Source: Calothrix sp. NIES-4105 (lineage in GTDB: Bacteria; Cyanobacteriota; Cyanobacteriia; Cyanobacteriales; Nostocaceae). From it: a stretch of 64,000 nt of DNA. Under the pieces are notes generated by a model that had not been told where the DNA came from, did not search any database, and saw only the letters and a list, made by a program, of their open reading frames with translations. Where the stretch lies: NCBI RefSeq assembly GCF_002368415.1, contig NZ_AP018290.1, forward strand, positions 10,779,717 through 10,843,716, in the 5' to 3' direction. Of this stretch, positions 2,484-51,157 are shown one piece after another. Position 1 is the stretch's first letter. Every line of letters starts with the position of its first letter. A program made the translations under genes and the position numbers.

Positions 2484-2485
2484 GA

Positions 2486-12207: not shown

Positions 12208-12256
12208 TAGTAAGGTGGGCAGCTAGTAGTAAGGTGGGCAGCTAGTAGTAAGGTGG
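12163..12256 (+). repeat. 19-bp tandem repeat, five copies
   Basis: Units of CAGTTAGTAGTAAGGTGGG, the later ones with CAGCTAG, run head to tail through the 3' end of the small gene at 11965. Since 19 is not a multiple of three, each added or lost copy would change the C-terminal frame of that protein. The array ends 13 bp before the 3' end of the histidine-kinase remnant. Confidence 0.9.
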
Positions 12257-12268
12257 CTTTTGCCGCAC

Positions 12269-21599: not shown

Positions 21600-21634
21600 A
21601 AACCTTTTTTATATTCGTAATTTATTCCGTATGA

Positions 21635-23410: not shown

Positions 23411-23421
23411 CTGAAACCTCC

Positions 23422-24606
23422 TTAAATTATACGCTCGATAAGTTGGGTTAGTACTTTGCGGGCATCAAAGTACTCTTCGGCAATTTCTCTAGCTGCTTTT
23501 TGGTGGAACTTGTAACGGCTGTTAATTTCTTCTATTCCCGTAAGTGCTTCAGAAAGGGTATTAAATGGAATAACGCCATATCCTGTATGCAACCAGTCAG
23601 AAAAACCTGTTTCTTGAACTAATACCGGGCGCCCACTAGCAAGGTAAGCAGCACTCCGCTCACTAAACCAACCGCTGCGACTAATTACATAGCCATGTTT
23701 AGCTACGGTAAACTCTGCTTTTGACTGTTGAATGTAGTGCTGATAACTCCAAGGGTCTAATGTCGTCTCGTCAGGATTTTGTACTATCCAGCCTTTACTC
23801 TTCAGCAGTGATCGCGGTGCTGTTGGGCTACCTACTGTTAACTCAAAGATGGATTTACTTTTCTGGGGTAAATCTAAGTAAGGCTTAAAAGAGTCAGACT
23901 TCATGCCGTAGTGCTGCCCATTGTATTCACGGGCTGGGTAACTGTCCCAAAGCATGACAGTGGTAAACTTTGCTTGATCGACTCCTGCGATGGCAGGCCA
24001 AGCATCCAAGAAGATGGGATGGCGCGTAGCTTGCCAAGGTAGTCCGTCATCGGGGATGGTAGACCTCGCGCAGTCGATATTTTCTCCAAATGAAAAGAAA
24101 GCTGTGTGTTGCTTTGCGTTCTTTAAGGCTATGGGATCGCTAAGATGTCGAATCTGGGTAAAAACTGGGTCTTTATCGATAAATACCCGTGCTGGTATCT
24201 CCATAAACCAAGGACGCAAAGGATTCACGCCGGAGAAGTTCAAAATAATATCGCAAGACGCGCAGACGCGGTTGATATCGTTAGCGCAGGCGCCATGCCA
24301 AGATGATGTGTGAGCATCGTAATATGCCCAACGATCGCCTAGTCCAAATTTGGCAAAAACGTGCGTTGCAAATTGCAACCCGTAGGTTGGGTCTGTATCC
24401 ATCACACCTCTAACTGGGTCATAGCAAGAGGGGTAGTCGTCGCTATCCTCAACGAAGTAGACATCATGTCCCAGGCTGGCAAGACCTAAGAGGTAATGCA
24501 AATCACTCCAAGCCATGCCACCTATAGGACCGCGCACGATGTAGCCAAGCACGATAATCCGCAGGCGGCTAAGGGATTTGGAGTTGGTTGAGGATGTGCT
24601 GGTCAT
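23422..24606 (-). CDS. CgeB-like GT4 protein, paralogue 1
   Basis: 394 residues. The N-terminus SRLRIIVLGYIVRGPIGGMAW, then LASLGHDVYFVED is a GT-B Rossmann entry. The C-terminal half (AKHGYVISRSGWFSERSAAY, then LASGRPVLVQETGFSDWLHT, GVIPF) is the CgeB/Glyco_trans_1_2 type in which the ERSA and LASGRPV segments form the donor site. Clearly paralogous to 24961-26163, where SRSGWFS corresponds to NSGWFS and YLASGRPVLVQETGFS to YLATARPVVVQDTGFS. Acceptor unknown. The gene follows a 354-bp repeat-filled gap but shares the operon direction. Confidence 0.8.
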   Translation of the reverse strand: MTSTSSTNSKSLSRLRIIVLGYIVRGPIGGMAWSDLHYLLGLASLGHDVYFVEDSDDYPSCYDPVRGVMDTDPTYGLQFATHVFAKFGLGDRWAYYDAHTSSWHGACANDINRVCASCDIILNFSGVNPLRPWFMEIPARVFIDKDPVFTQIRHLSDPIALKNAKQHTAFFSFGENIDCARSTIPDDGLPWQATRHPIFLDAWPAIAGVDQAKFTTVMLWDSYPAREYNGQHYGMKSDSFKPYLDLPQKSKSIFELTVGSPTAPRSLLKSKGWIVQNPDETTLDPWSYQHYIQQSKAEFTVAKHGYVISRSGWFSERSAAYLASGRPVLVQETGFSDWLHTGYGVIPFNTLSEALTGIEEINSRYKFHQKAAREIAEEYFDARKVLTQLIERII

Positions 24607-24960
24607 AAATATAAGTAAAAATTTTATTAGCTAGTAGTCTGTCACACGATCTTTAATGGGTAAAAAATTGAACCACAAAGGACACAAAGTACACAAAGAA
24701 AGAAAATAAAAGAAAGTGATTATTAGTGTCACCCCGGAGCGCGTTGGTGTGACAGTTTACTTAAATCGGTGCCTACCCCCAGAATTAATGACATGGAGTA
24801 CTAGCATCATTAAATTTGGTGGTTTACACCTTAATAATTCTTTCTTTGTGCCCTTTGTGTCTTTGTGGTTCATTTCTTTTCCTCTGTGCCCTCTCTTGCC
24901 TCTGTGATAAAAAATACATTACCGCACAGGCAGGGATGCCTGTGCCACAACCCATTCAAA
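24607..24960. repeat. Repeat-filled gap within the glycan operon
   Basis: AACCACAAAGGACACAAAGT (from 24672) is inverted relative to TTTGTGCCCTTTGTGTCTTT (from 24845), framing ~150 bp. The CTCTGTGCCCTC module and the GCACAGGC-AGGGAT-GCCTGTGC hairpin (24931-24953) follow. The arrangement matches the repeats at 3080-3370, 11041-11112 and 47866-47895. It is the only large gap between genes of the operon and separates the two CgeB-like paralogues, so it probably arrived after they were established. Confidence 0.7.
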
Positions 24961-26163
24961 TTAATGACATCGAATATTAGTGAGTGCTGCATTAAGTAGT
25001 TGGCTAAGTACTAAATTCGAGTCAAAATACTCGTGGGCGATGTTAAGTGCCGCTTTTGTATGCCGTGTATAATTTGCCTCGACTTCATGAATAGCTGCGA
25101 GCGCTTCTTCCTGTGTCGTGAATGTCAAAATCCCTTCTCCTACTGGCAGGATGTTACTAAATCCAGTATCCTGAACAACTACAGGACGAGCAGTAGCCAA
25201 GTAGCAAGCGGAACGACAGCTAAACCAACCACTGTTCATCGCTACGTATACGTGTTTAGCTGGGGAAAGTTCACCTCTTGAGTTCGCGATAAATTTCTGA
25301 TAATTTTCTGGTGTCAATGTTGCGCTAGGCGCATCCACTACTTTCCATCCTGCACTTGCTATCTCCATCAAGGGAGCTTTCACGCCGCCTACCGCTACAG
25401 TCAGGGGTACATTTGTACCTTGGGGTAAAGTTAGCAATTTCTCAAACTCACTGCCTTTGCTGTTATACTCTACACCTTGGTAAATCAGCTTGCCTTTGAA
25501 TGCGTTCCAAGTCATGACCGTCGTCCACGCTCCCATCTGGGGTGGTGGAATCTGGGCGCCACGTTCCCACAAATCCATTACAACTGGCATCCGCGTTGTT
25601 TGCCATGCAAAATCTACCTTGGGGATGAGGCAATTTGCGTTGTGGATGTTCTCTGCATAAGTGAAGTGTCGGTCATGGGCTGCTACTGAATCACACCATC
25701 GCTCGACGTTCTCTGACCAAGCAAACCGTTCACTGAGCATAAGTTGGTTGTAGCCTGGATCGGTGTCAAGGAAGATTTTCACGCACCGCGACGAGAGGTT
25801 ATCGGGAATTATACACGCTCCACTGACGTTTAGGAATACATCAGCTGTACGTGCTACTTCATCGAACTCGCTCTGATTCATGCCGAAGCTGGTTGAATGT
25901 AGATGCAGGTAATGCCAGCGCTCTTTTAGTTCTGGCGCGTAATCCTTCCAGAAATCTTGGATGTATTGCGCTGAGTAGCTGGCATCTGAGGTATAGGTTT
26001 TGTCAAGGGGATGATACGGCCAGCTCCAAGTATCTTCATAATAGTATACGTCGTGTCCCAACCGCGCCAGTCCAATGACGTACTGGAGATAATCCCACGC
26101 TACCCCACCGACTGGATATAAGCCCACGAGTCCTGTAACGATGATACGAAGTTGTGAAGACAT
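24961..26163 (-). CDS. CgeB-like GT4 protein, paralogue 2
   Basis: 400 residues, same architecture as paralogue 1: LRIIVTGLVGLYPVGGVAWD, then LQYVIGLARLGHDVYYYED at the N-terminus, a FLDTDPGYNQ segment, and a C-terminal SPAKHVYVAMNSGWFSCRSA, YLATARPVVVQDTGF block. It probably arose by tandem duplication and then diverged strongly. Both likely transfer sugars within the same repeating unit. It follows the ABC exporter with a 14-bp gap. Confidence 0.8.
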   Translation of the reverse strand: MSSQLRIIVTGLVGLYPVGGVAWDYLQYVIGLARLGHDVYYYEDTWSWPYHPLDKTYTSDASYSAQYIQDFWKDYAPELKERWHYLHLHSTSFGMNQSEFDEVARTADVFLNVSGACIIPDNLSSRCVKIFLDTDPGYNQLMLSERFAWSENVERWCDSVAAHDRHFTYAENIHNANCLIPKVDFAWQTTRMPVVMDLWERGAQIPPPQMGAWTTVMTWNAFKGKLIYQGVEYNSKGSEFEKLLTLPQGTNVPLTVAVGGVKAPLMEIASAGWKVVDAPSATLTPENYQKFIANSRGELSPAKHVYVAMNSGWFSCRSACYLATARPVVVQDTGFSNILPVGEGILTFTTQEEALAAIHEVEANYTRHTKAALNIAHEYFDSNLVLSQLLNAALTNIRCH

Positions 26164-26177
26164 TGTTTTGCTTTTGC

Positions 26178-27914
26178 TTATGCAGCGATTAAATTGATCA
26201 GTCGCCCGTCTTCGATTTCCATCCGCAAATCACAAATTTCTAGGGTACTCAAGCGGTGGGCAATCATAAAAGTGGTGCGTCCATGTACAAGACGTTCCAT
26301 CGCTTCCATAATTGCAGTTTCGGTTTTGGTATCGACGGAACTGGTCGGTTCATCAAGGATCAAGATGGGGGCATCTTTGAGGAAAGCGCGCGCTAGGGAA
26401 ATTCGCTGACGTTCGCCACCTGAGAGGCACATACCGCGTTCGCCGACTTGAGTTTCATAGCCTTGCGGCAGTTTGGAGATGAAATCATGAGCGTTGGCTG
26501 CTTTGGCTGCGGCAATAATTTCGCCATCGCTCGCATCAGGTTTAGCATAGGCTATGTTCTCGGCAATGCTAGTTGAGAAGAGTACAGGCTCCTGTAAAAC
26601 AATTGCAAACTGGTTACGGAGGTCAGCTAACTTGTAGTCGCGTAAGTCAACGCCGTCAAGCAAAATTTGGCCACTGGTGGGGTCAAAAAACCGCATCAGC
26701 AGGTTTACCAGAGTTGTCTTACCAGCGCCCGTCCTGCCAGCAATGCCTAAGTGGGTTCCAGCTGGGATTTCAAAGGAGATATCCTGCAAAACTTGGTTGT
26801 TATTAAAGGCGAAGGAGACGTTGCGGAAGGTGACGGCGCCTAAAGCACGAGAGATTGGTTGGGCATTTTTGATCTCAACTACATCTGGTGCTTGATCGAG
26901 AAGCAACAAAGCTCGCTCGACACTAGCTAGCGATCGCTGTAGTCCTGCAACTTGATTGCCGATAGATTGCAAGGGGCCATATAACTGTATAATATATGAC
27001 TCTACTACGAGGAGTTCACCTAAAGTTAAAATACCACTTTGGACATGTTGTACGCCCATAAATAGAATGACTGCATACCCTACAGCAGTTATCAGATTGA
27101 TGAGGGAACTAACAAAATTCTGGATAACGACAACGCGGATACGTATCCAAATGGCTTTGCTAAAGTTGCGAACGAAGCGTTCTCGTTCACGTTCCTCCCG
27201 ACCAAAAGCCTTAACGACCCGAACTGCTCCCAACACCTCCTGAACAACTGACATTGCCGAACTTTCAAACTTTTGATAATCCATCCATTGAGTACGCAAG
27301 CTGCCACTTGAAACCCGTGTCACCAGGAATAAAAAGGGTGAAACTAACAGTGCAATCAAAGCTAGCTGCCAGTCAATTAGGGCAGTGACATAGAACATAC
27401 CGACAAGCCACAAACTTGTAATAAATAACGGTACAATGCCATCAATCGTTGTCCATTGGATGGCTGGCGCATCATATTGGATGCGATATGTAGAGTCGAA
27501 TGTGCCTTTGGAATCATGGTAAGAGAGTGAGACACATTGAGCTTGGTGCAACAGGCGCGCGCGAAACTCCAGAACCATCTTTTCGCTGGTGTAGGTTCGC
27601 AGTAACGAACTTGCAAGCCCAAGCAGCGGACGCAGTATGGCAATAAATACCACCAAGCTGACAGCAAATACAAGTAAAGTGGTTTTGGAACGTGCCAAGG
27701 CTACTGGGAGAAGTACGTCCAAGAAGCTAGGGAGCGGTTCTGAGCCGATAACGTTGTCAACGACAATCTTTAATGGTAGTGGGGTCAGCAAAGCAAGGGG
27801 AGTTGACAGCAGGTCGAGCAGAAAAGTACCCGCAATGTGAAACCAGTAGGGTTTTACTTGATGTAACAACCGTCCATAGATATGCAAATCTTTAGTGAAC
27901 TTCGCGGTAGTCAT
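26178..27914 (-). CDS. MsbA/HepA-type ABC exporter (TMD-NBD fusion)
   Basis: 578 residues. About six helices (residues 15-310) are followed by an ATPase with Walker A IAGRTGAGKTTLVNLLMR, Q-loop VLQEPVLFSTSI, signature CLSGGERQRISLARAF, Walker B ILILDEPTSSVD and switch histidine IAHRLST. A homodimeric exporter for lipid-linked glycan or glycolipid is expected. Embedded in the glycosyltransferase operon, it probably exports the product. HepA of the Anabaena heterocyst envelope polysaccharide belongs to this family; orthology is not shown here. Its ATG overlaps the stop of the upstream gene (TAATG). Confidence 0.9.
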   Translation of the reverse strand: MTTAKFTKDLHIYGRLLHQVKPYWFHIAGTFLLDLLSTPLALLTPLPLKIVVDNVIGSEPLPSFLDVLLPVALARSKTTLLVFAVSLVVFIAILRPLLGLASSLLRTYTSEKMVLEFRARLLHQAQCVSLSYHDSKGTFDSTYRIQYDAPAIQWTTIDGIVPLFITSLWLVGMFYVTALIDWQLALIALLVSPFLFLVTRVSSGSLRTQWMDYQKFESSAMSVVQEVLGAVRVVKAFGREERERERFVRNFSKAIWIRIRVVVIQNFVSSLINLITAVGYAVILFMGVQHVQSGILTLGELLVVESYIIQLYGPLQSIGNQVAGLQRSLASVERALLLLDQAPDVVEIKNAQPISRALGAVTFRNVSFAFNNNQVLQDISFEIPAGTHLGIAGRTGAGKTTLVNLLMRFFDPTSGQILLDGVDLRDYKLADLRNQFAIVLQEPVLFSTSIAENIAYAKPDASDGEIIAAAKAANAHDFISKLPQGYETQVGERGMCLSGGERQRISLARAFLKDAPILILDEPTSSVDTKTETAIMEAMERLVHGRTTFMIAHRLSTLEICDLRMEIEDGRLINLIAA

Positions 27915-28480
27915 TATTGCTGTAATATTGCAGTTTCCGGAGCAGACTTATGACTTATGGTTTGTATCGGTATTAGGTAGACTCTTTTAGCAATAATCTC
28001 TATCACTTGGTAGAGAATACGTCCTAGTTGGAAGTTCTGATATAGGATGACACTAACGTTGAGCAACAAGAGTACAAATGTTATGGCTGCTATTTCTGGC
28101 ATTCCTAGAATAATTGCCACAATTGTGAATAAGGAATAGCCAAATATAGCCATAGTGGCGAACTGTGACATCCTCAGCGCACACCGCACCCTGTGAACTC
28201 TTTTGTTACCTCCATGATTTTCTGTACATACTCTGAGTTGAGCTTTCGACCAAATCCCCTGGTAAATCTCTAAATCCCAGTCGCTCCAACCTTGATCCAT
28301 GATAATGAAATACTTGTGAGCTACAAGTAAATCCATCACTTTTTGCAGCAGGTTCTCCTTCTCCATTCCTGCTTCTGTCCAATAGGACAATTCATAGCTG
28401 AGATCGCGCCAGGAAATATTTACTCTGGATGCTGGCGAATCAAACTTGATTAAATCTGCTTGAGTTAGTGTTTGAGTCAT
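27914..28480 (-). CDS. Two-helix membrane protein of the glycan operon
   Basis: 188 residues. The N-terminal ~110 residues are soluble (ELSYWTEAGMEKENLLQKVM, DQGWSDWDLEIYQGIWSKAQ) and two helices follow: SQFATMAIFGYSLFTIVAII and ITFVLLLLNVSVILYQNFQ. The stop overlaps the ABC exporter start, so the two are translationally coupled and probably interact. The DxGWSDWDLEIY stretch looks conserved in style, but I do not recognise the family. Confidence 0.7.
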   Translation of the reverse strand: MTQTLTQADLIKFDSPASRVNISWRDLSYELSYWTEAGMEKENLLQKVMDLLVAHKYFIIMDQGWSDWDLEIYQGIWSKAQLRVCTENHGGNKRVHRVRCALRMSQFATMAIFGYSLFTIVAIILGMPEIAAITFVLLLLNVSVILYQNFQLGRILYQVIEIIAKRVYLIPIQTISHKSAPETAILQQ

Positions 28481-28517
28481 GATCTTGAAACTTCTTGTAT
28501 TTTTATTTACACTTTAT

Positions 28518-30602
28518 TTACAGGTCATCAAAGTTTATCGGTTGTGCTTTCGTCAGTTCCTTGATGCGCCAGCGGTAGCGTTCTACACTGCGTACAATTG
28601 GCCCCAGATAAATCAGTAGTGCCACAAGCAACCTTGCCCTGACTCTGAGAAATCGGGGATCAATCCGCGCTTGTATTGCACCAGCTATACACCAGCTAAG
28701 AGAGATGACGAACATTACCACACTTAACCACGGGCGCTCGCCAGACAAAAGTTCTGATACAAACAGGATTAAAGCTGCTACATTCCACTCCAGTGTCAGG
28801 GGGAGGTAAGAGATAAGCGACGAGGAAGGCTCGTACAAGGTTTGAAACAGACCGCGACCGAACACTCCAGAATAGATAATTGGTTGACCAATACGAACAA
28901 ATGCAGATAAATCTCCGTAGATCCTCCCCAACCAAGACGGCTGTCCCAGAAGGTTAAAGCGGTAGGGATGCTTAAAATAAACAAGCGCTTCTGCCTTGCC
29001 ATAGCCTTTTTGCTGTTTGAGATAGGCTGCTACTGTGTTACGGCGAAAGTGCCATACGATTGCAGCCGGAGTAAAGCCAATGGTGTAACCTCTATCTTGC
29101 AGGCGCCAGCATATATCGACATCATCACCAGCAGCACGAAATATCGGGTTGAAGCCGTTAATTTCTTGTAGTACCGAACGGCGAAAAGCCATGTTGCAGC
29201 CAGCAATATGTTCGGCTACTTCATCACTCAAAAGTATGTGGGTAGGTACGCCAGGAGAGACAGCAACGCAGGCGGGAATAAGAGAGTCCTCTTTTGGAGA
29301 TAAGTTAGGTCCACCTACAGCGGCTAGACCTGACGAGAGAAACTTTGCTACCAGATAGGTGAGCCAGTCTGGGTCTGCCATACAATCAGAATCGGTATAG
29401 GCCACGATCTCGCCAGTTGCGGCGGCGATACCGACGTTGCGCGCGACGCTTAATCCCTTGTTTTCTTGGCTAATTAGGCGTACATAGTCGTAACGCTGAG
29501 TAATTTCTAAAGTGCGATCGTTCGATCCATCATTAACTACGATGACTTCATAGTTAGGATAGTTAAGTTCTTTAAGAGAGGCTAAACAACTATCCATCGT
29601 GCGTTCAGCATTGTAAGCGCATACAACTACTGAGACTTTAGGATACTCAGGTAATACTGGCGGTAGAGGCGCCGTATAATACTGCTTTACCGTGTCAAAG
29701 GCGGGCTTTTTGAACCGTTCAGCATCAACTAAACCAAAAGCCCAGTCCTGAATAGCATATCCGCCAGTAAACCACTCGTCCGTCCAGGAAAAGATTATCG
29801 TTCCCGCTGCTCCCATCTCAAAACTAGATGACAACTTCTGCTGAATAATTTCGGCTTGCGCTTGGGTTCCTTCACGCATTGAATCAACACCAAACTCACT
29901 CAGCACTAAAGGTTTATCTTCGGCTAGGTTATGGAGTCGTGAGAGGTAACGGCGAAAATCTTGTTCCTGATGTAGGTAAACGTTAAAGCATGAAAAATCA
30001 GTAAAGTTAATATTTAAATACTCTGTAGAGGGGTAATTGGCGTAGCTCACCAGACCTTCGGGGTCGATGGATTTTGCTACTGCCATTAACTCTTTAATAA
30101 AAGCCCGGACTCGTTTTGCTCCGTGCCATCGGACAATATCTGGAGGAATTTCATTACCCACTAAATAGGCAAAGGTGGCAGGATGACCCTGACAAGCTTT
30201 AACTCCTTGGGCAATGCAGTTACGAATTTCTGCTTTAACAGTAGAAGAATCAAGGAAGGCTATATGCTGAGTCCAAGGTATACCGATTAACAGCCTTAGA
30301 CCGCTCATTGCAGCTAAATCCAAAAGCCAATCAGGTGGAACGGTATAAGTACGCAGACAGTTAGCCCCCAGTTCTGCCATCATGGCAAAGTCTTTTTCCA
30401 CAACTCGTTTCTCTGGAAAAGACTCGCCGTGCGTGCCGATCGAGAAGGGACCATAGCTAACCCCTTTGAGAAAAAACTTCTGATCTCCGAGAAAGAAAAA
30501 TTTACCCTTGACTGTAACTGCCTCTTTTTTCGCAAGCGGTTCAGGACAGAAACCAGAAGGTGGCGAAGTCAGGTTTTGCAAATTATCCTCCCCACAATTC
30601 AC
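28518..30602 (-). CDS. Glycoside hydrolase (GH2/GH5-like) fused to GT2
   Basis: 694 residues. Residues ~35-310 are a TIM-barrel hydrolase/transglycosylase module with FFLKGVSYGPF, ELGANCLRTYTVPP, acid/base Glu151 in VGNEIPP and nucleophile Glu236 in LVLSEFGVD. Residues ~321-560 are a GT2 domain (VSVVVCAYNAERTMDSCLAS, VVNDGSNDRT, AYTDSDCMADPDW, and a QDRGYTIGFTPAA/WHFRR acceptor segment). Hydrophobic C-terminal segments (~600-670) anchor it to the membrane. One chain both adds sugars and cuts or transfers glycan. It is the first gene of the leftward operon, downstream of the shared leader element. Confidence 0.88.
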   Translation of the reverse strand: MNCGEDNLQNLTSPPSGFCPEPLAKKEAVTVKGKFFFLGDQKFFLKGVSYGPFSIGTHGESFPEKRVVEKDFAMMAELGANCLRTYTVPPDWLLDLAAMSGLRLLIGIPWTQHIAFLDSSTVKAEIRNCIAQGVKACQGHPATFAYLVGNEIPPDIVRWHGAKRVRAFIKELMAVAKSIDPEGLVSYANYPSTEYLNINFTDFSCFNVYLHQEQDFRRYLSRLHNLAEDKPLVLSEFGVDSMREGTQAQAEIIQQKLSSSFEMGAAGTIIFSWTDEWFTGGYAIQDWAFGLVDAERFKKPAFDTVKQYYTAPLPPVLPEYPKVSVVVCAYNAERTMDSCLASLKELNYPNYEVIVVNDGSNDRTLEITQRYDYVRLISQENKGLSVARNVGIAAATGEIVAYTDSDCMADPDWLTYLVAKFLSSGLAAVGGPNLSPKEDSLIPACVAVSPGVPTHILLSDEVAEHIAGCNMAFRRSVLQEINGFNPIFRAAGDDVDICWRLQDRGYTIGFTPAAIVWHFRRNTVAAYLKQQKGYGKAEALVYFKHPYRFNLLGQPSWLGRIYGDLSAFVRIGQPIIYSGVFGRGLFQTLYEPSSSLISYLPLTLEWNVAALILFVSELLSGERPWLSVVMFVISLSWCIAGAIQARIDPRFLRVRARLLVALLIYLGPIVRSVERYRWRIKELTKAQPINFDDL

Positions 30603-30729
30603 TGCAAATTTGTTACCCGTAGCGTCAAATGGCTACGGTGGCTAAAAGTATTATTTAATTTTTTTTTTGCTAAATTTAGCTAGGTAAAAACCTCACGCGA
30701 CGCTATAAGTGCGCGCGGGTGGGTTGTAT

Positions 30730-30815
30730 GATTGTTGGTTCCACCACAATCCTTATTAAATAACAGCTCTGTTTGCGATGGCGTTTAGGAAAGTGTATGA
30801 CTTAACGTATAAGTT
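30730..30815 (-). promoter_or_regulatory. Shared leader element, left copy
   Basis: Read on the minus strand it begins AACTTATACGTTAAGTCATA, continues through ATCGCAAACAGAGC and ends in an ATTGTGGTGG region. It is homologous to 34516-34610 on the plus strand: 45 of the first 50 bases match by my alignment, and the first 22 are identical. It contains ACTTA-ACGTA-TAAGT (30800-30814), a palindrome with 5-bp arms. The conserved block ends ~163 bp before the GH-GT2 start. Candidate promoter/operator of the leftward glycan operon. Confidence 0.7.
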
Positions 30816-30825
30816 AGGTCGATAC

Positions 30826-30841
30826 AGCTACTCGAGTAGCT
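30826..30841. terminator. 16-bp perfect palindrome after the NACHT gene
   Basis: AGCTACTCGAGTAGCT directly follows the NACHT stop codon on the minus strand. It could be a weak terminator or a protein-binding site; no T-run follows. It sits 12 bp from the shared leader element. Confidence 0.4.
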
Positions 30842-30844
30842 CAT

Positions 30845-33208
30845 TTAATCTGTGGCGCCGACCGCGCTCCTATATTTGCTGAGTGCTGAACTCGATGCTC
30901 TTACAGGCAACAACAACGTTTCCAAAATCGCCTCTTGCACAGTGGAACTCACTTCACAACTGCTGTTGACGCAATCCACCAGTAACTGATTAGCAATATA
31001 GTACTGGAGTAGCGCTTGTTTTTGCTGCTCGCTGAACTGCCATTGCTGACCGATGTTGCGATACTGCACCATCACAGACCTTAATGTTTCAAGCCAAGTT
31101 TGACCGCTAGCATTCCACCATTGCTTTAATTTTTCTTTGCCTTGAGTTGGGCATGGTAGTTTTTCTTTGAGTTGTTGTAGCAATAGCTGTAGCTCAGGAT
31201 TACAAATAAGAGTTTCGTTCTCAGAAAGGGTAAAGTTTAAGGCAATAACTCGATTTACACCTGGATCATCAGGTAGGGTTAGGCTTAAGTATAATACACA
31301 CCTCAGTGCCAAATCTACCTTCAAATCAGGGGCAAGATTACTAGCAAACCTGGGATCGATAGCAACGAAGAGAGCCTGGTCATTAGCAAACATCAGATCG
31401 TCGCTCAGGGCTAGTGTTAGGTAAAAGGCGCGAATAGCTGCTCCTTTGTGGGGCGCCTGAACTGAAAGGGACTTCTGGTTGAGCCAGATAAGGAACTCCT
31501 GCAATTGTTTATCAAAGGCAACTAGCCCATCAATATGTTGCTTCATTAACTGCAACAGATAAGTGGCATTATCTAACATGCCAGTTGTCAGTAAAAAGAC
31601 ATTGCGCCAACGGGGTTCAGTCAAATGACTGACCAAATTGATTAGTTTTTCTTCCAAAATTTGTGGTTCAGGATTAGCAACAATATCTCTAGCCGTTAAA
31701 TACTCTTGAAAAGCTAGATAAGAGAACGAGTAAATTAAGGGCGCCCGTTCTATCAGTAGTCCATGTTCCTCAAACAATGTCAGTACTGCCTCACTGTTGG
31801 GTTGCAGTAACTCCTGCTCAGTTGATGCATTAGATAAATTACGCAGAGAGTCCGCAATGTAGGACTCGACGTGAGTTTGTGTAAAAAAGTAACGATCTTG
31901 TTTAAAGGTAATGGCAGCAATTTGACTCAGCAGTTTAAGTTTATGGTGTAAAGAAAAATTGTAAACTTTATCGTGTTTAATACTCCTTGCTTTATCACAG
32001 TGGTAAAGCAAAATCTTCAATGCTTCCTTATAAAGTTCGACTCGTCTAGTTGGAAAGTCTAAACGGGCTTGAAATACACAACAAACTAGGTTAAGCAAAA
32101 GCGGCGTCACGGTTAGTTCTCGAATTTGTCGATTTTCCCATAATTGCAACTTTTGCATGAACTGACAAGCCTTAGCCTTTGCTTCTTCTATGGAATTCCT
32201 ACCAACATTGATAAACCACTTTTGGACAAAGGCTTGAATTTGAAACTGGTCAAAATCAGCAATCTCAATCTCGGTAAATCCTTCCAACTGGTACTGTAAG
32301 GCAGCAGTACGACAAGTAATAATCAACTGATTTTTGTAATATTCCTCCGAAAACTTACAAATACTTTTCATAATTTCAGCGCTATCCGAGTCTGGAATTT
32401 CATCCAAACCATCCAGCAAAATTAACATTCTGCCATGAGCAAGTATTGTTTGGATGTCCTGGTCTTTTGCGCCAAAGTCAGCGAGAGCTTGATTAATATA
32501 GTTCAACAAACTATAGTTGCCTATGTCTCTGGCATCGGATGCAAAATTTTTTAAACGGAGAAAAATCGGTATTTTGTCTGATAGTAATTTGCCTTGATTG
32601 CATTGGGTAGCAATATCTTGCAAAAATGTGGTTTTACCAGACCCAGGTTTACCTAGAACCATCAGTTTGGGATAAGTTGTAACTGCCTCTATTGCACTTC
32701 CTCGCTCCTTGCAAACTTGAGCTAAATCAAATCGATTTAATTCTTCTGGAACAAAGCCTTGCAAGTCAATGATATTTGACCATCTCTGACTTATAATATG
32801 ATTAAGAATATCGACACTGACATAAATGTCTTCTAAGTCAATTGGTTGAGCAATATCTAACAACCGCGTAGTAGCACATTGGGCTTGAATTTTATCGCTT
32901 CTGCCGGAGCGCGTGATTTGCACCAAGGTATCGATATCCAGGCAGCCGTCCCAATCCTGGTTATTTTTCGTCAGTAAACTCTGATTCGGTAACTCAGCAA
33001 TCTCTTGCCAATCCAAGCCAAGTTGAAAGCAGATCTCCATAAAGCTCTGACGCTCAATCGGCCTACCTGTAAAAAATTTCCAAATTGGCTGGCGAGTTTC
33101 AAGTCCTACCTCACTAGCTAGATAATCTTGCGTCCATTCCCTAACTTTAAAAGCCTTTTTTGCTTTTTCGATGCCTGAGGTAGACGCTTTTAATGAACGT
33201 CGTGCCAT
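30845..33208 (-). CDS. NACHT-domain NTPase with N-terminal HTH (bacterial NLR-like)
   Basis: 787 residues. The N-terminal ~75 residues look like a small HTH/death-fold-like module (EWTQDYLASEVGLETRQPIW, then KFFTGRP) that is standard in cyanobacterial NACHT proteins. The NACHT domain has Walker A VLGKPGSGKTTF (~185-195), Walker B MLILLDGLDEIPDSD (~261-275) and sensor-like ITCRTAAL. The C-terminal ~450 residues are helical: LTVTPLLLNLVCCVFQ, a SYLAFQEYLTARDIV winged-helix segment, then a NACHT C-terminal region. Members of this group include anti-phage proteins, but a regulatory role in the neighbouring glycan operons is also possible. It is a single gene between two divergent operons. Confidence 0.88.
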   Translation of the reverse strand: MARRSLKASTSGIEKAKKAFKVREWTQDYLASEVGLETRQPIWKFFTGRPIERQSFMEICFQLGLDWQEIAELPNQSLLTKNNQDWDGCLDIDTLVQITRSGRSDKIQAQCATTRLLDIAQPIDLEDIYVSVDILNHIISQRWSNIIDLQGFVPEELNRFDLAQVCKERGSAIEAVTTYPKLMVLGKPGSGKTTFLQDIATQCNQGKLLSDKIPIFLRLKNFASDARDIGNYSLLNYINQALADFGAKDQDIQTILAHGRMLILLDGLDEIPDSDSAEIMKSICKFSEEYYKNQLIITCRTAALQYQLEGFTEIEIADFDQFQIQAFVQKWFINVGRNSIEEAKAKACQFMQKLQLWENRQIRELTVTPLLLNLVCCVFQARLDFPTRRVELYKEALKILLYHCDKARSIKHDKVYNFSLHHKLKLLSQIAAITFKQDRYFFTQTHVESYIADSLRNLSNASTEQELLQPNSEAVLTLFEEHGLLIERAPLIYSFSYLAFQEYLTARDIVANPEPQILEEKLINLVSHLTEPRWRNVFLLTTGMLDNATYLLQLMKQHIDGLVAFDKQLQEFLIWLNQKSLSVQAPHKGAAIRAFYLTLALSDDLMFANDQALFVAIDPRFASNLAPDLKVDLALRCVLYLSLTLPDDPGVNRVIALNFTLSENETLICNPELQLLLQQLKEKLPCPTQGKEKLKQWWNASGQTWLETLRSVMVQYRNIGQQWQFSEQQKQALLQYYIANQLLVDCVNSSCEVSSTVQEAILETLLLPVRASSSALSKYRSAVGATD

Positions 33209-34515
33209 AAACCAGACTTTGACCTCCAGATATTGTAAATTTAGGGCAAGAAATTAACTCCATTCATATGTCCATATTAAATTTTATGTTGTTTTTTATG
33301 CAGCAGCCTGCACCGCGCGAGTAAAGTCTACCAAAATCTATTTACAACTAAACAAATAGGGTCAACCGGGAGAGTAGTATTCAACTTTCCCTTATAGTCG
33401 CTCTCTTCACACCTTCACAAACTGATGGGGTTTCAAAACAGTAGTAATTTGACAGTTTCATCAAATAAAATCTGGACAGCCGAAGGTGAAAAATGTTTTA
33501 GCAACTTAATCGCTGGTAACTCACCTGGGTATCCATTTATCTGTTTCGATATTTTAGTAACGTAAGTTTGGTAAATTTGTGTCATTGACTCTACTTTTTG
33601 ACTTCGAGCTTTGTCAAGCTACAAGTAAGTATTGGATTATGGTTTGAATATTATTTAATTTTTTGAATTTCTTATTAATCATAATATCGAGTTTGAAATT
33701 CAAGTTGCCATTTTGGCAGTTTTTTTAGTTTCAGTTAAACTCGATGGCGTTATTAAAACCTTGAACGATTGAATTGGCAGCAAAGTAAAAATCCGCTTAT
33801 TCCCAACACGAGAATCTGGAGCTTTTAGCTTAATAGAGTAAGAAAATTCGTACCAGAACGCTTGCAGTTGGTAGCAGGATGAATTACTAGACAAAATATT
33901 TATATTATCTTCTCGCATATACCAGCCCTTTGCTTAATTGGTTTAACCTTGGAGACATTTACTACTTTATTTGCAACACCTAGATAATTTACAATTTTGA
34001 CACCAGTGCCAAGATTTTACACACCGATAACACGATAATTTTTATTCTCAAATCCTACATAATTATGCGGAGTTGTCACACACTATGCAAAAATAATTTA
34101 TATACACTTGCCAACCAAAATACATATATAATTTATAAACCTTTTTTCAAGAGAGAAATTTTTAATATTTTTATCCTCCATTTGTATATTTTTTTTATCG
34201 TCTATCTATAGACTGATTTTAGGATAAAAAGTTTGAAGTAAAGAATTATAGAAGCTACTTAATATTGATATTTGTTTTGTATAAAAAAATATCAATAATG
34301 TATACGTTGACAAATACGTCCTTTTATGGGTTAAAAATATTTTGCTTCTACTTGGACAAGATGGTGAGAAATAATGATGAATTTGCCCTTGTGAGTGAGT
34401 TTTCCATCGGTAATTTTTTAATAGTCAGACATTTTGTTAATGATTATTATTCTTCTTAAAATCTCGTAAGATTGAGTTTTTTGTATGATTTATTGTTTGG
34501 AAGTCCTATTAGAGG
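33209..34515. other. Long AT-rich intergenic region
   Basis: About 1.3 kb between the NACHT start and the right copy of the leader element. It is AT-rich with frequent T-runs. Two short frames (33700-33918 minus, 34265-34459 plus) have no recognisable features and no convincing ribosome-binding site. No tRNA, IS end or tandem repeat was recognised. It probably holds promoters and perhaps a decayed gene or an unrecognised small RNA. Confidence 0.4.
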
Positions 34516-34610
34516 AACTTATACGTTAAGTCATACATTTTCTCGAACGCGATCGCAAACAGAGCAGTTGCATACTGTTTTTTATGAACGGTTGTGCTGG
34601 TATCACAACA
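34516..34610 (+). promoter_or_regulatory. Shared leader element, right copy
   Basis: Starts AACTTATACGTTAAGTCATA, contains the 15-bp palindrome ACTTATACGTTAAGT (34517-34531) and GCGATCGCAAACAGAGC, and ends with GGTTGTGCTGG...CACAACA. The conserved 50-bp block ends ~176 bp before the epimerase ATG, close to the 163 bp on the left side, and the copy has the same orientation relative to its operon. It differs from the left copy by an ~8-bp indel after the core. Candidate common promoter/operator or 5' leader. Confidence 0.7.
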
Positions 34611-34741
34611 TAAGCACAGTCAAGGCAGCCTAGCAAACACCTCTTCGTGCGTTCTTTGGCTCGTTACGAGGAAATGGTTTTGTAGTAAGTCAACAGAGGT
34701 TTTTTACACAACCTGGCTTTACTTAGTAAGATTTGACACCT

Positions 34742-35815
34742 ATGAAAATACTTGTAACTGGAACTGAAGGTTATATTGGTTCGTTGTTAGCTCCAATCTT
34801 GATGCAACACGGACATGAAGTTATTGGGGTTGATACAGGATTCTATAAGGTTGGTTGGCTATACAATGGTACTGAGTTAACAGCCAAAACGCTTAATAAG
34901 GACATTCGCCACATTACACTTGAAGATTTACAAGGTGTTGAAGCAGTCGTTCATCTGGCTGAACTCTCCAACGACCCAGCCGGACAGCTATGCCCAAATG
35001 TAACTTATGAAATAAATCATCAAGGCTCAGTTCGGCTTGCAGAATTAGCTAAAACAGCTGGTGTACGTCGCTTTGTCTACACGTCTTCGTGCAGTGTCTA
35101 TGGTGTTGGTACTGATGACTACGTGACGGAGGATTCTCCCGTCAATCCCCAAACAGCCTATGCAGAATGTAAAACGTTGGTAGAGCGAGATGTCAAGTTA
35201 TTAGCTGATGATAGTTTCTCTCCTACCTTTTTGCGGAATGCCACAGCCTTCGGCGCCTCTCCTAGAATGCGCTTCGATATTGTTTTAAACAACTTATCTG
35301 GGCTGGCTTGGACGACTAAAGAAATCAAGATGACAAGCGATGGTACTCCTTGGCGCCCATTAGTTCATCTGCTAGACATTTGCAAAGCAATTGTATGTAC
35401 ACTCGAAGCCCCACGTGACATTATTCACAACGAAATTTTTAATGTGGGTGACACAGGTAGTAACTATAGAGTCAAGGAAATTGCTGAAGTAGTAGCTTCC
35501 GTTTTTACTGGATGCCAGCTTTCTTTTGGTGACAGTAGTGCGGATAACCGTAGCTATCGGGTTTCTTTCGAGAAGATTAACACCAAACTACCGGGATTTA
35601 AGTGTGAGTGGAATGCTTTTTTAGGCGCCCAGCAGTTGTTCGATGTATTTACTGCTATCGATATGTCAGAATCCACTTTTCTGTTTAAAGGATTCACTCG
35701 CTTAAAGCAGCTAGAGTATTTGATTCGCACTCAGCAAATAGATCAAAATTTCTTCTGGAATAAGTCATGCTATTCACAGAAACTGCCCTCAAAGGCGCAT
35801 TCGTTATTGACATAG
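34742..35815 (+). CDS. NAD-dependent sugar epimerase/dehydratase (extended SDR)
   Basis: 357 residues from the ATG at 34742. Rossmann motif KILVTGTEGYIGSLLAPIL with GxxGxxG, VVHLAELSNDP, catalytic Ser/Tyr region YTSSCSVYGVG...TAYAECKTLVE (YxxxK) and TFLRNATAFGASPRMRFD. This is the subgroup acting on NDP-hexoses in deoxysugar pathways. The C-terminus runs 49 bp into the next gene with a non-conserved tail (...FWNKSCYSQKLPSKAHSLLT), so the original stop may have been lost by a small frameshift. First gene of the rightward operon. Confidence 0.88.
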   Translation: MKILVTGTEGYIGSLLAPILMQHGHEVIGVDTGFYKVGWLYNGTELTAKTLNKDIRHITLEDLQGVEAVVHLAELSNDPAGQLCPNVTYEINHQGSVRLAELAKTAGVRRFVYTSSCSVYGVGTDDYVTEDSPVNPQTAYAECKTLVERDVKLLADDSFSPTFLRNATAFGASPRMRFDIVLNNLSGLAWTTKEIKMTSDGTPWRPLVHLLDICKAIVCTLEAPRDIIHNEIFNVGDTGSNYRVKEIAEVVASVFTGCQLSFGDSSADNRSYRVSFEKINTKLPGFKCEWNAFLGAQQLFDVFTAIDMSESTFLFKGFTRLKQLEYLIRTQQIDQNFFWNKSCYSQKLPSKAHSLLT

Positions 35816-36318
35816 AGCAACGGCAAGATGCTCGTGGCTTTTTTGCTCGGACTTTCTGCGCTCAGGAATTTTTGGATCATGGTTTAAAGCCAACAATTGC
35901 ACAATGTAACTTGGCTTTCAACCACAAAATAGGTACTCTCCGGGGTATGCATTATCAAGTTGCTCCAGCAACCGAGGTCAAGTTGGTTCGCTGTACTCAT
36001 GGTGCTATCTACGATGTGATCATCGACCTGCGTCCTGAATCTCCTACATATAAGTTACATATTGGTGTTGAATTAACAGCCCAAAACCGTAGAGCTTTAT
36101 ACGTACCTGAGATGTTCGCTCATGGCTACCAAACGCTAACTGACCAAGCTGAGGTTGTGTATCAGATGAGTGAATTCTATGCACCAGATTACCAGTGTGG
36201 GCTACCCTATAACGATCCAGCTTTTGGAATTGAATGGCCTTTACCTGTAAGTGAAATTTCTGAGAAAGATACTTGCTGGCCTTTGTTTGAATGTAACAGT
36301 GTGGGAGCTAACAAATGA
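35767..36318 (+). CDS. rfbC: dTDP-4-dehydrorhamnose 3,5-epimerase-like protein
   Basis: 183 residues, the normal RfbC length and cupin fold. GAFVIDIEQRQDARGFFART, QCNLAFNHKIGTLRGMHYQ with the catalytic histidine, VRCTHGAIYDVIIDLRPESP and VPEMFAHGYQTL are diagnostic. It epimerises C3 and/or C5 of a 4-keto-6-deoxy-NDP-hexose. Next to a cytidylyltransferase and C-methyltransferase, the substrate may be CDP- rather than dTDP-linked. The start overlaps the epimerase gene by 49 bp and its stop overlaps the methyltransferase start by 4 bp. Confidence 0.88.
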   Translation: MLFTETALKGAFVIDIEQRQDARGFFARTFCAQEFLDHGLKPTIAQCNLAFNHKIGTLRGMHYQVAPATEVKLVRCTHGAIYDVIIDLRPESPTYKLHIGVELTAQNRRALYVPEMFAHGYQTLTDQAEVVYQMSEFYAPDYQCGLPYNDPAFGIEWPLPVSEISEKDTCWPLFECNSVGANK

Positions 36319-37595
36319 CTACGACAACTTTGCAACAGTCTGTACTAAATGGTACAAAAGTTAATCTTTGTGGCTGTCGATTTTGTGGAACAACGTTAAA
36401 GCATACCTTTGTGGATTTGGGAATGTCACCGCTTTGCGAAAGTTACGTGGCGCCTGAACAGCTAAACCACATGGAACCCTTTTATCCACTGCATGTCTAC
36501 GTGTGCGATCGCTGTCTCTTAGTTCAACTTCAGGAATATGTAAGTCCGCAAGATATCTTCAGCCACTATGCCTACTTTTCGTCTTACTCTGATTCTTGGC
36601 TACAACATGCCAAAAATTATACTGAAGAAGTAATAGATCGCTTTGGACTTAACTCTTCTTCGCAAGTAGTAGAAATAGCTAGTAACGATGGTTACTTATT
36701 GCAATACTTTGTATCAAAAGAAATACCTGTCCTAGGTATAGAACCAGCAGCTAATGTTGCTGAGGTAGCTATCGCAAAAGGCGTTCCCACAGTTATCAAG
36801 TTCTTTGGACAAAACACAGCTTCGGAACTAGCTGCTAATGGCAAGCAAGCAGATTTATTAGTAGGTAACAATGTACTTGCTCATGTACCCGATATCAACG
36901 ATTTTGTCGCAGGCTGTAAAATTTTACTGAAGCCTGAAGGTGTCATTACTATGGAGTTTCCCCATTTAATGCGACTGATTGAGGGAAACCAGTTTGATAC
37001 TATCTATCACGAACATTTCTCTTACTTGTCACTACTCACAGTAGAGAAGGTTTTTGCTGCTCACAATTTAGTCATCTTTGATGTAGAAGAACTGTCAACT
37101 CATGGTGGCTCTCTGAGAATTTACGCTTGCCATGTAGAAGATAATTCTAAATCTATCAGTCAGGATGTAAAAGATTTAAGAGCGAAGGAAAAAACAGCGG
37201 GATTTCTTGACTTAGAAAGCTATTCTTCCTTTGCTGAAAAGGTGAAGGAAACTAAGTTTCAACTTTTGGAATTTTTAATCGCAGCTAAACGCCAAGGAAA
37301 GTCAATTGCTGGTTACGGCGCCCCTGGTAAAGGTAACACTCTTTTGAATTATTGTGGAATTAGAGAAGATTTCCTCGATTACACTGTAGACCGAAATCCT
37401 TTCAAGCAAGGTAAATTTTTGCCAGGAACTCACATCCCAATCTTTCATCCAGATAAGATTCAAGAAACTAAGCCAGATTATCTGTTGATTTTACCTTGGA
37501 ATCTGAAAAATGAAATAATGTCTCAAATGTCCTATGTACGTGACTGGGGCGGTAAATTTGTAGTCCCAATTCCGGAAGTCAGGGTCTATTCTTGA
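36315..37595 (+). CDS. NDP-sugar C-methyltransferase (TylC3/NovU-like)
   Basis: 426 residues with the three-part architecture of sugar C-methyltransferases. An N-terminal zinc-binding domain has CGCRFCGTTLKHTFVDLGMS and VCDRCLLVQL. A SAM-binding Rossmann domain has QVVEIASNDGYLLQYF and VGNNVLAHVPD. The C-terminal domain has SIAGYGAPGKGNTLLNYCG and TVDRNPFKQGKFLPGTHIPI. It adds a methyl branch, usually at C3, to a 4-keto-deoxysugar nucleotide. This implies a branched deoxysugar in the glycan. Confidence 0.9.
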   Translation: MTTTTLQQSVLNGTKVNLCGCRFCGTTLKHTFVDLGMSPLCESYVAPEQLNHMEPFYPLHVYVCDRCLLVQLQEYVSPQDIFSHYAYFSSYSDSWLQHAKNYTEEVIDRFGLNSSSQVVEIASNDGYLLQYFVSKEIPVLGIEPAANVAEVAIAKGVPTVIKFFGQNTASELAANGKQADLLVGNNVLAHVPDINDFVAGCKILLKPEGVITMEFPHLMRLIEGNQFDTIYHEHFSYLSLLTVEKVFAAHNLVIFDVEELSTHGGSLRIYACHVEDNSKSISQDVKDLRAKEKTAGFLDLESYSSFAEKVKETKFQLLEFLIAAKRQGKSIAGYGAPGKGNTLLNYCGIREDFLDYTVDRNPFKQGKFLPGTHIPIFHPDKIQETKPDYLLILPWNLKNEIMSQMSYVRDWGGKFVVPIPEVRVYS

Positions 37596-37648
37596 GCAAC
37601 AGGGCAACTCAAATTTAATGTAATTAATTAATACCAAAGGAAAATACA

Positions 37649-38509
37649 ATGAAAGTAGTTTTATTTTGCGGTGGTTTAGGAACAAGATTAAGAGAATTTT
37701 CCACGAGTATTCCTAAGCCAATGGTCCATATTGGTTACAGACCAATATTGTGGCATGTGATGAAATACTATGCTCACTATGGACACAAAGATTTTATTTT
37801 GTGTCTTGGTTATAAAGCAGATGTCGTCAAAAATTATTTTCTCAATTATGATGAGTGTGTTTCTAATGATTTTACTTTACAAGAGGGAGGTAGAAAAATT
37901 AAACTCGTCAATAGTGATATTGAAGATTGGAATATTACTTTTGTCGATACAGGATTGACTTCAAATATTGGACAAAGGTTCAAGGCAGTTGAAAAATACT
38001 TAGAAGGGGAAGAAGTATTTTTAGCCAACTATAGCGACGGTTTAACAGATCTACACCTACCTGATTTAATTGATGATTTTTATAGACATAATAAAATAGC
38101 CAGTTTTTTGTGTGTCAAACCATCGCAAAGTTTCCATTTAGTTTCAGCACAAGAAAATGGTTTAGTAGATGATATTCAAAGTGTTCAGCAAGCTGGTATT
38201 AGGATAAATGGTGGTTTTTTTGTGTTTAATAAAGATATATTTAAATACATTGAAAGCGGAGAAGAATTGGTGCTTGAACCATTTCATAGACTCATGAAAA
38301 TCAAACAACTTTTAGCTTATAAATATAACGGCTTTTGGGCGTGTATGGATACTTTCAAAGAACAGCAACAATTAGATGATATGTATTGTCAGGGTAATGC
38401 TCCTTGGGCAGTATGGAAACTCGCTGAAAGGAAGGTCAAATCTTTGGAATATAGCCGAATTACTCAGTTTACAAATGATTCTGTAGCAGTAAGTTTGGCT
38501 CAAGGATAA
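37649..38509 (+). CDS. rfbF: Glucose-1-phosphate cytidylyltransferase-like nucleotidyltransferase
   Basis: 286 residues. KVVLFCGGLGTRLREFSTSI, then PKPMVHIGYRPILWHVMKYY contains the GGxGTR and PKPM motifs. The following GHKDFILCLGYKADVVKNYF is typical of the RfbF branch rather than RmlA. ...NYSDGLTDLHLPD provides the metal site. It activates glucose-1-phosphate with CTP to CDP-glucose. It makes the donor that the epimerase, RfbC-like protein and C-methyltransferase then modify. The expected CDP-glucose 4,6-dehydratase is not a separate gene here, unless the SDR at 34742 serves. Confidence 0.88.
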   Translation: MKVVLFCGGLGTRLREFSTSIPKPMVHIGYRPILWHVMKYYAHYGHKDFILCLGYKADVVKNYFLNYDECVSNDFTLQEGGRKIKLVNSDIEDWNITFVDTGLTSNIGQRFKAVEKYLEGEEVFLANYSDGLTDLHLPDLIDDFYRHNKIASFLCVKPSQSFHLVSAQENGLVDDIQSVQQAGIRINGGFFVFNKDIFKYIESGEELVLEPFHRLMKIKQLLAYKYNGFWACMDTFKEQQQLDDMYCQGNAPWAVWKLAERKVKSLEYSRITQFTNDSVAVSLAQG

Positions 38510-38635
38510 TTACCTATTTATTTGACAGTAGATAGTAGATACTTACTTAAAATATAGGAATTCTATATCTACTGTAAGAGTTTTTTAAGCAAGTATTTAT
38601 AAAAAAGTATTCTTTAAACTTAAACAATTACCAAG

Positions 38636-39289
38636 ATGCTAAAATTTACATTTGAGGAAGAAAACAACTTTGACTATAAAGTTTTGTGTTTAGGAGCGCA
38701 TTGTGATGATATAGAAATTGGTTGCGGAGGTACGATATTAAAATTGGTAGAAACTTACCCAAATATTATGTTTTATTGGGTTGTATTTAGTTCAAACTTA
38801 CAAAGAGAAAAGGAAGCTTATAACAGTGCTAATTATTTTTTAAAAAATACAAATATAAAAAATATAGTAATCAAACAATTTCAAGACGGATTTTTTCCTT
38901 TTATAGCAATTGAAATTAAACAGTTTTTCGAGCAATTAAAACAAGAATTTAGTCCTAATTTGATTTTTACCCATTATCGACAGGATTTGCATCAAGATCA
39001 TCGCTTAATTTCAGAATTTACTTGGAATACATTTAGAAATCATTTAATCTTAGAGTACGAAATACCTAAATATGATGGTGATTTAGGTCATCCTAATTTC
39101 TTTGTTAATTTAAATGAGGGAATTTGTCAAAATAAAATCAAATATATTATTAACAGCTTTCCATCGCAAAATAATAAACAATGGTTTACAGAAGAAACTT
39201 TTCTATCAATTTTAAGATTGAGGGGAGTTGAGTCTAATTCACCTCATAAATATGCAGAAGCTTTTTATTGTCGTAAAATGGTTTTTTAG
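38636..39289 (+). CDS. PIG-L family deacetylase
   Basis: 217 residues. VLCLGAHCDDIEIGCGGTIL is the metal-binding AHxDD motif with cysteine before the second aspartate pair, and IFTHYRQDLHQDHRLISE gives the second H-x-x-D-x-x-x-D-H block. PIG-L enzymes remove N-acetyl groups from GlcNAc-containing glycans or glycolipids, or act in antibiotic biosynthesis. It probably completes the sugar modification cassette. It is AT-rich (many A-runs) compared with neighbours, which may point to a different origin. A REP palindrome follows within 25 bp. Confidence 0.85.
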   Translation: MLKFTFEEENNFDYKVLCLGAHCDDIEIGCGGTILKLVETYPNIMFYWVVFSSNLQREKEAYNSANYFLKNTNIKNIVIKQFQDGFFPFIAIEIKQFFEQLKQEFSPNLIFTHYRQDLHQDHRLISEFTWNTFRNHLILEYEIPKYDGDLGHPNFFVNLNEGICQNKIKYIINSFPSQNNKQWFTEETFLSILRLRGVESNSPHKYAEAFYCRKMVF

Positions 39290-39310: not shown

Positions 39311-39343
39311 AGATTTCCGACTTGTTTAAGAAGTCGAAAATCT
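39311..39343. repeat. REP palindrome, copy 1
   Basis: AGATTTCCGACTTGTTTAAG, continuing to ...GTCGAAAATCT, is a 33-bp imperfect palindrome after the deacetylase. It has the same length and core as those at 47744 and 48520 that flank the RAYT gene, and is the most degenerate of the three. Confidence 0.75.
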
Positions 39344-47743: not shown

Positions 47744-47776
47744 AGATTCACGACTTCTTAAAGAAGTCGGTAATCT
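47744..47776. repeat. REP palindrome, copy 2 (left of RAYT)
   Basis: AGATTCACGACTTCTTAAAG, continuing to ...AAGTCGGTAATCT, is a 33-bp palindrome with a mismatched pair, 17 bp after the murJ stop. It is one of two copies bracketing the RAYT gene. A CTTTGTGCCCTTTGTGTCC-type repeat at 47866-47895 lies between it and the RAYT start. Confidence 0.8.
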
Positions 47777-50963: not shown

Positions 50964-51142
50964 CAAATATCCTACAAGCTTTGTGCATATCTTCTAAACC
51001 CGCCCCCACGATAGTAAGGGCGGGTTAACAGATATCCTACAAGCTTTGTGCATATCTCCTAAACCCGCCCCCACGATAGTAAGGGCGGGTTAACAAATAT
51101 CCTACAAGCTTTGTGCATATCTTCTAAACCCGCCCCCACGAT
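50948..51142 (+). repeat. Three 65-bp tandem repeats with hairpin arms
   Basis: Unit boundaries at 50948, 51013 and 51078. Each unit contains GGGCGGGTTAAC and, 36 nt on, AACCCGCCC, so each can form a hairpin. Units differ by two single-base changes in the middle copy (AACAGATATC, ATATCTCC). The first copy overlaps the end of the cyclo-ligase gene. The hairpins might terminate that gene. No spacers, so not CRISPR. Confidence 0.92.
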
Positions 51143-51157
51143 AATCTAAAACCTAAA

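Follow-up and report, generated by a model that had tools for sequence, protein, structure and literature searches.

Two copies of a promoter-like element around an XssQ-like NACHT gene suggest joint control of divergent glycan operons in Calothrix

XssQ of Synechocystis sp. PCC 6803 is a STAND activator of exopolysaccharide genes that, in the accessible text of PMC8205485, binds the site AAGTTXXAC and activates; in the accessible part of PMC13125312, XssQ plus XssR are sufficient in another cyanobacterial host. The former text also describes XssQ homologues as widespread, with the consensus present near clusters for sulfated exopolysaccharides, and both texts mention ABC-type clusters as well. 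Here we describe a comparable locus within a 64,000-nt stretch of the Calothrix sp. NIES-4105 genome (the window; NZ_AP018290.1, positions 10,779,717 to 10,843,716), in which two copies of one element, A and B, lie upstream of two divergent glycan operons and flank a gene for a NACHT protein. We propose, with a probability of roughly 0.8, that both copies act as activator-dependent promoters within a single local regulon and that the NACHT protein encoded between them binds each as its activator. The features concerned are as follows.

30730 to 30815, minus strand: element copy A, upstream of the glycosyltransferase (GT)/exporter operon; begins 29 nt past the NACHT stop codon
30807 to 30815, minus strand: copy A box 1, AACTTATAC, 6/7 to AAGTTNNAC
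30795 to 30803, minus strand: copy A box 2, AAGTCATAC, 6/7
30771 to 30784, minus strand: copy A invariant block, ACGCCATCGCAAAC, in which a single change breaks GATC/CGATCG
30755 to 30760, minus strand: TTTAAT, the putative -10 of copy A, placed in this register by reading the sequence
30845 to 33208, minus strand: NACHT/STAND protein, XssQ homologue, 787 aa (Pfam NACHT and NCH2), proposed activator of both copies
34516 to 34610, plus strand: element copy B, upstream of the deoxysugar operon
34516 to 34524, plus strand: copy B box 1, AACTTATAC
34528 to 34536, plus strand: copy B box 2, AAGTCATAC
34547 to 34560, plus strand: copy B invariant block, ACGCGATCGCAAAC
34571 to 34576, plus strand: putative -10 hexamer of copy B, CATACT

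The two copies form the longest inverted repeat reported for the window, 54 nt at 89% identity (30762-30815 on the minus strand against 34516-34569 on the plus strand). A preliminary description of this DNA had claimed that they are homologous and equally placed, and reading the sequence bears this out: 45 of the first 50 bases are identical, including positions 1 to 22, and each copy faces its own operon. Measured from the end of the 54-nt match, copy A stands 159 nt from the listed GTG at 30602 (180 from the TTG at 30581) and copy B 172 nt from the ATG at 34742, near the claimed 163 and 176. Used as a BLAST query against the whole genome (12.04 Mb, 8 contigs), copy A retrieved itself and copy B (E 5e-13), with the next match at E 0.85; there are thus two copies, one per operon. 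A profile built from 30 aligned element copies recovered both, with scores of 79 and 56 bits; everything else in the genome scored 12.4 bits or less.

We found that the element has three conserved parts. Across the 30 aligned copies, AAcTTATAC-RTT-AAGTYATAC is followed by ACGCGATCGCAAAC and then, after ~10 variable bases, by cAcAcT/CATACT; A2, A8, A13, A14, T16 and C21 are invariant, as is most of the middle block. A further 27 matches outside the training set show the same three parts, with bases 2, 4 and 6 of the CATACT-like -10 hexamer fixed, although these matches were chosen by the model itself and are therefore biased as a test of conservation. The tandem boxes AACTTATAC and AAGTCATAC repeat with a 12-bp period and fit the XssQ site AAGTTXXAC at 12 of 14 positions at both operons, and box 2 reaches at least 6/7 to the XssQ consensus in 26 of the 30 copies. 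The nearly invariant middle block ACGCGATCGCAAAC lies in the -35 region, and as a 14-mer it has two exact copies in its own genome. Copy A of the window departs from the other copies by a deletion of 10 nt before the hexamer and by one change in the middle block, and TTTAAT now occupies the -10 register. A generic promoter scan of 30550-34800 reported neither element copy. Together, this layout suggests an activator-type promoter with tandem direct-repeat boxes, an invariant block and a CATACT-like -10.

The preliminary description had also stressed a 15-bp palindrome in each copy as a candidate operator. The palindrome is present, but its perfect 5+5 form occurs in just 12 of the 30 aligned copies, whereas a direct repeat with a 12-bp period (at least 7/9) occurs in 24, so that the sites look like tandem direct repeats rather than a palindromic operator. 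Searching the genome for ACTTANNNNNTAAGT returned 25 places against 35 for a backwards control, which makes the bare palindrome uninformative by itself. The repeat HIP1 (GCGATCGC) invites comparison with the middle block, as it is contained in the block in 27 of 30 copies. The element's conservation, however, extends past HIP1 to the whole of ACGCGATCGCAAAC, which as a 14-mer is limited to the two exact copies given above.

The closest parallel is the xss locus. The window NACHT protein matches the product of a NACHT gene on pSYSM of Synechocystis with 38% identity over 98% of the protein, and we take that gene to be xssQ because its neighbours in the xss cluster are response regulators; the other xss gene names used here likewise rest on the position and product of the genes. 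A 42-kb stretch of pSYSM contains exact AAGTTNNAC ten times, and in seven cases the site precedes one of five cluster genes by no more than 130 bp. The pair that we assign to the xssE promoter, which has been tested by electrophoretic mobility shift assay, has a 12-bp period, the same as the window boxes. Both systems, then, have tandem AAGTTNNAC-like boxes of this period upstream of glycan genes and a STAND/NACHT regulator with a similar N-terminal region, encoded in an exopolysaccharide locus. They differ in that the window locus has an ABC exporter and xss has Wzx/Wzy, in that the window regulator gene sits between two divergent operons, and in that the window promoter is extended by the invariant ACGCGATCGCAAAC, a block not described for xss in the accessible text of the two papers. 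Sulfotransferase families PF13469 and PF00685 match no window gene and only one place in the genome, near 755.6 kb and 10 Mb off; PF03567 was not among the families searched. Directly behind the NACHT gene, the related locus L051 encodes a MHYT-PAS-kinase-receiver-Hpt protein and a single-receiver protein (Pfam; 2468-6171), like the histidine kinase XssS and the receiver XssR, and L052 (6081-9679) and L096 (3214-6836) have two ORFs there that would fit such a pair by position and size. The window carries a HisKA/HATPase open reading frame (ORF) at 12269-13045, ~18 kb from the NACHT gene, that gave no MHYT, receiver or Hpt match.

Two further regulatory systems bear comparison. MalT-type STAND activators also pair a STAND ATPase activator with asymmetric direct-repeat sites; their DNA-binding domain, its position in the protein and the site are different. 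The SigJ J-Box of Nostoc punctiforme is likewise a conserved promoter signature in filamentous cyanobacteria but, in the accessible text of PMC6495340, it is an extended -10 and not an upstream box pair, and its published sequence, GGGaAtacT, is absent from the aligned element.

Within the NACHT protein, likeness to XssQ is concentrated at the N terminus (48/74 identities there, 245/687 elsewhere). Pfam identifies NACHT (E 8e-20) plus NCH2, and GKPGSGKT and LILLDGLDE, which we take to be Walker motifs, can be read directly from the sequence. A search against profiles from the PDB matched NLRC4 for the NACHT core only and no helix-turn-helix (HTH). The preliminary description had left open whether the NACHT gene is an inserted defence gene. 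PADLOC gave just a marginal RecD match and the NCBIfam EruA match scored 30 bits against a cut-off of 1000, and we rejected that candidate. The position of the gene in relatives also speaks against an insert, as follows.

We scanned named genomes with the first protein of the GT operon and considered the best 80 of 269 loci, 17 of them cyanobacterial by name. BLAST with the window copies found the element in 14 of these 17, ten of which have both copies in the fetched stretch; L054, L082 and L085 have none there. Among the four single-copy loci, L048 ends at a contig end, and a genome-wide search recovered a second copy for L051 and L044 (E 8e-11 for L044); the fourth is L096. Whole-genome searches, made for 12 of the 17, returned exactly two strong copies in nine genomes. 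Every one of these copies belongs to the orthologous locus, and the NACHT gene lies between them in eight genomes and beside copy B in one. The remaining three of the 12 have no strong element and no NACHT match above 49% identity; matches in the L054 genome reach only E 0.006-0.008, and the L082 and L085 genomes gave none. NACHT proteins are 64-69% identical to the window protein in 12 aligned orthologues and 73% identical in the ninth genome. Kept in place at such identity, the NACHT gene belongs to the conserved content of the locus, and it is most likely a local activator rather than a defence insert. When 60 relatives were searched with copy B, six genomes only gave matches at E 5e-6 or better. 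Separately, L043 (4244-6830) retains copy B with no deoxysugar gene in the fetched stretch, and transposase pieces lie before copy B.

The element and the NACHT gene also keep company across the order. In 388 genomes of the window's order, as defined by the search tool's taxonomy, the profile yielded 118 matches at E 0.001 or better in 55 genomes, own genome included, and a search of those 55 with the NACHT protein returned 143 hits (E 1e-60 or better), spread over 51 of them. Of the 118 element matches, 44 have a NACHT hit at most 15 kb away on their own contig, against 1.35 expected under uniform placement, and 20 have one at most 2 kb away, against 0.25. Leaving out four known training genomes gave 39/104 against 1.16 expected, and 16/104 against 0.22. 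The association depends on the N-terminal region of the protein: an element lies within 15 kb of 39 of the 100 NACHT hits whose alignment covers it, and of 0 of the 43 hits without it (Fisher p 7e-8, a value that overstates independence because the genomes are related; the hits lacking the region are mostly also the more distant ones). Without the training genomes, the split is 35/93 and 0/39.

The restriction of the element to two copies in the genome, one per operon, synteny in relatives, co-occurrence with elements, homology to XssQ, the match of the boxes and the ORFs of three relatives that would fit an XssS/XssR pair are our grounds for reading the NACHT protein as the activator. The preliminary description had suggested a common regulator of both operons; our sequence comparisons support this, and the NACHT gene would best be read as encoding that regulator itself. 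For XssQ, binding and activation are described in the accessible text of PMC8205485; in Calothrix we infer that an XssQ-type STAND regulator would bind the tandem AAGTTNNAC-like boxes, placed ~50 and 63 bp upstream of the putative transcription start. Bound there, the NACHT protein would recruit RNA polymerase, the promoter itself being weak and its -10 resembling CATACT. The GT/ABC-exporter operon and the nucleotide-deoxysugar operon would be switched on together, and assembly and export of a polymer would be made together with an unusual sugar. STAND proteins assemble into oligomers in a signal-driven, NTP-dependent manner; by analogy, a signal may drive NTP-dependent assembly here, with cooperative binding to the direct repeats.

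Several observations weigh against this assignment. Only 17 of the 30 copies have both boxes at 6/7 or better, and box 1 is poor (3/7) in copy A of L045. Each window box carries one mismatch to AAGTTNNAC, which gives the 12/14 tandem fit, and the consensus alone leads one to expect ~1.2 such sites per window, a third one indeed lying inside the NACHT gene. On pSYSM the full profile is weak: its best match (E 0.021) has no annotated gene behind it, and the xssA site scores E 0.36. The window N terminus alone has no HTH match; for XssQ, an HTH is stated in the accessible text of PMC8205485. Three relatives and XssQ gave only sub-cut-off HTH_3/Cro-type matches, and two AlphaFold models are of low confidence (mean predicted local distance difference test scores 46 and 42). 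Among the window proteins scanned, which do not cover every ORF, none form an XssS/XssR-like pair next to the NACHT gene, and the genome has only partial matches to the L051-type kinase (E 1e-60), the receiver not having been part of that search. Six same-genus genomes gave a best match of just E 0.02, so that the locus is patchy, and one relative has transposase remnants in front of copy B. Finally, for 74 of the 118 element matches there is no NACHT hit within 15 kb on their contig, with contig breaks accounting for part of these.

The genes behind the elements elsewhere point the same way. We surveyed 29 loci (L124-L152, three of them training loci), respecting orientation, for the first downstream ORF that encodes 100 aa or more. 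Such an ORF is present in 23, and in six (L124, L125, L128, L130, L133 and L134) it matches window or xss glycan/exporter proteins by BLAST. Pfam, applied to ten ORFs near the element (eight first-downstream, with those of L131 and L132 lying farther downstream), found a glycosyltransferase, an ABC membrane domain and an Alg14-like protein in three. One each gave a sub-cut-off PEP-CTERM match, a sigma-70 factor, nonribosomal peptide synthetase (NRPS) domains, a histidine kinase and a C39 peptidase, and two were matchless. Given these other functions, the regulon in other genomes is not limited to glycan genes. Two individual cases come from this set: in L127 (1501-3082) of another genome, an element copy begins 421 bp before an ORF of the sigma-70 family, and in L126 (1501-3068) a copy lies upstream of NRPS condensation/AMP-binding domains.

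The invariant middle block leaves room for a wider proposal, which we regard as speculative and rather unlikely: that the NACHT proteins of this family, as a rule annotated simply as NACHT NTPases, are a widespread class of cyanobacterial activators, each with its own tandem-box promoters, that ACGCGATCGCAAAC is an obligatory second input read by some factor or through GATC/CGATCG methylation, and that copy A has lost this input, leaving the two operons no longer identically controlled. We consider it distinctly improbable that another regulator or an alternative sigma factor recognises the copies, with the NACHT gene a passenger or a separate input. Such a factor would explain why ACGCGATCGCAAAC, to which XssQ binding is unreported, is conserved more strongly than the box pair, and why those 74 matches have no NACHT hit nearby. 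It would not explain why the element accompanies N-terminus-bearing NACHT genes only, nor why the boxes match the XssQ site, and the SigJ signature is absent from the element.

Control of the two transcripts by a common RNA leader or riboswitch, the former also raised in the preliminary description, appears very improbable. The B leaders are alike downstream up to the start codon and contain a short hairpin, yet the predicted element structure has 2 pairs and no covariation, just 1 of 23 predicted pairs in nine B leaders shows a two-sided change, conservation peaks upstream of the putative -10, and Rfam over 27000-36000 gave one snoRNA match at E 0.23, far below the gathering score. We give almost no credence to a mobile repeat, of the miniature inverted-repeat type or another, or to a recent functionless local duplication, for although the two similar copies are in opposite orientation and transposase remnants lie near copy B in one relative, the genome has only two copies, both orthologous positions are kept in 9 of the 12 genomes with the GT gene, and A and B are no more alike within one genome (85% over the first 45 columns, 10 pairs) than between genomes (85%, 172 pairs), which argues against recent copying.

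Activation of both copies by the NACHT protein would add to what has been described for XssQ. As far as the accessible text of PMC8205485 and PMC13125312 goes, three points are new: that a divergent locus without a sulfotransferase hit is assigned to an XssQ-type regulator, that the promoter has three parts, and that co-occurrence depends on the N-terminal region. Literature searches on XssQ and STAND/NACHT regulators, mostly outside subscription journals, brought up no paper that we recognised as treating this locus. Bacterial NACHT proteins are easily taken for defence genes; here one is assigned to promoter control, and so, by co-occurrence, are some of its relatives. Many of the promoters that would be controlled serve polysaccharide genes, and the site and its layout yield a testable prediction. 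The sequence profile can be used to find targets of such regulators in the exopolysaccharide loci that Nostoc, Scytonema, Brasilonema and their relatives carry.

The two operons, whose extents we derived from gene order, comprise the following.

28518 to 30602, minus strand: first gene of the GT operon, a glycoside-hydrolase (GH)-like TIM barrel plus GT2; the real start is probably the TTG at 30581
26178 to 27914, minus strand: ABC exporter (MsbA/HepA-like)
20406 to 26163, minus strand: downstream part of the GT operon, with two glycosyltransferases over the Pfam cut-off and two ORFs matching nothing over cut-off
34742 to 39289, plus strand: deoxysugar operon, with NAD-dependent epimerase/dehydratase, dTDP-sugar isomerase, C-methyltransferase, nucleotidyltransferase and PIG-L deacetylase

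Relatives of the GT/GH fusion protein at 49-69% identity occur in alphaproteobacteria, other proteobacteria and Verrucomicrobia, and beyond the 17 cyanobacterial loci the best 80 of 269 belong mostly to proteobacteria and Verrucomicrobia. The HepA-like exporter had led us to consider the heterocyst envelope (HEP) island. We dropped that reading, without a direct comparison to any HEP gene, because the exporter falls far under the HepA cut-off (337 against 725 bits) and because of how the GT/GH relatives are distributed.

Elsewhere in the window, a TnpB-like ORF with a Cas12f1-like TNB domain (18621-20141) separates the GT operon from HlyD/MacB-type export genes. A TPS-domain secreted protein (39354-42020) and a ShlB-type transporter (61317-63218) may form a two-partner secretion system. 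Hairpin-like dispersed repeats of 33 nt stand near gene ends at 39311-39343, 47744-47776 and 48520-48552. Tandem repeats comprise a 19-bp unit at 12163-12257 and, at 50947-51143, a 65-bp unit in three copies with 97-100% identity.

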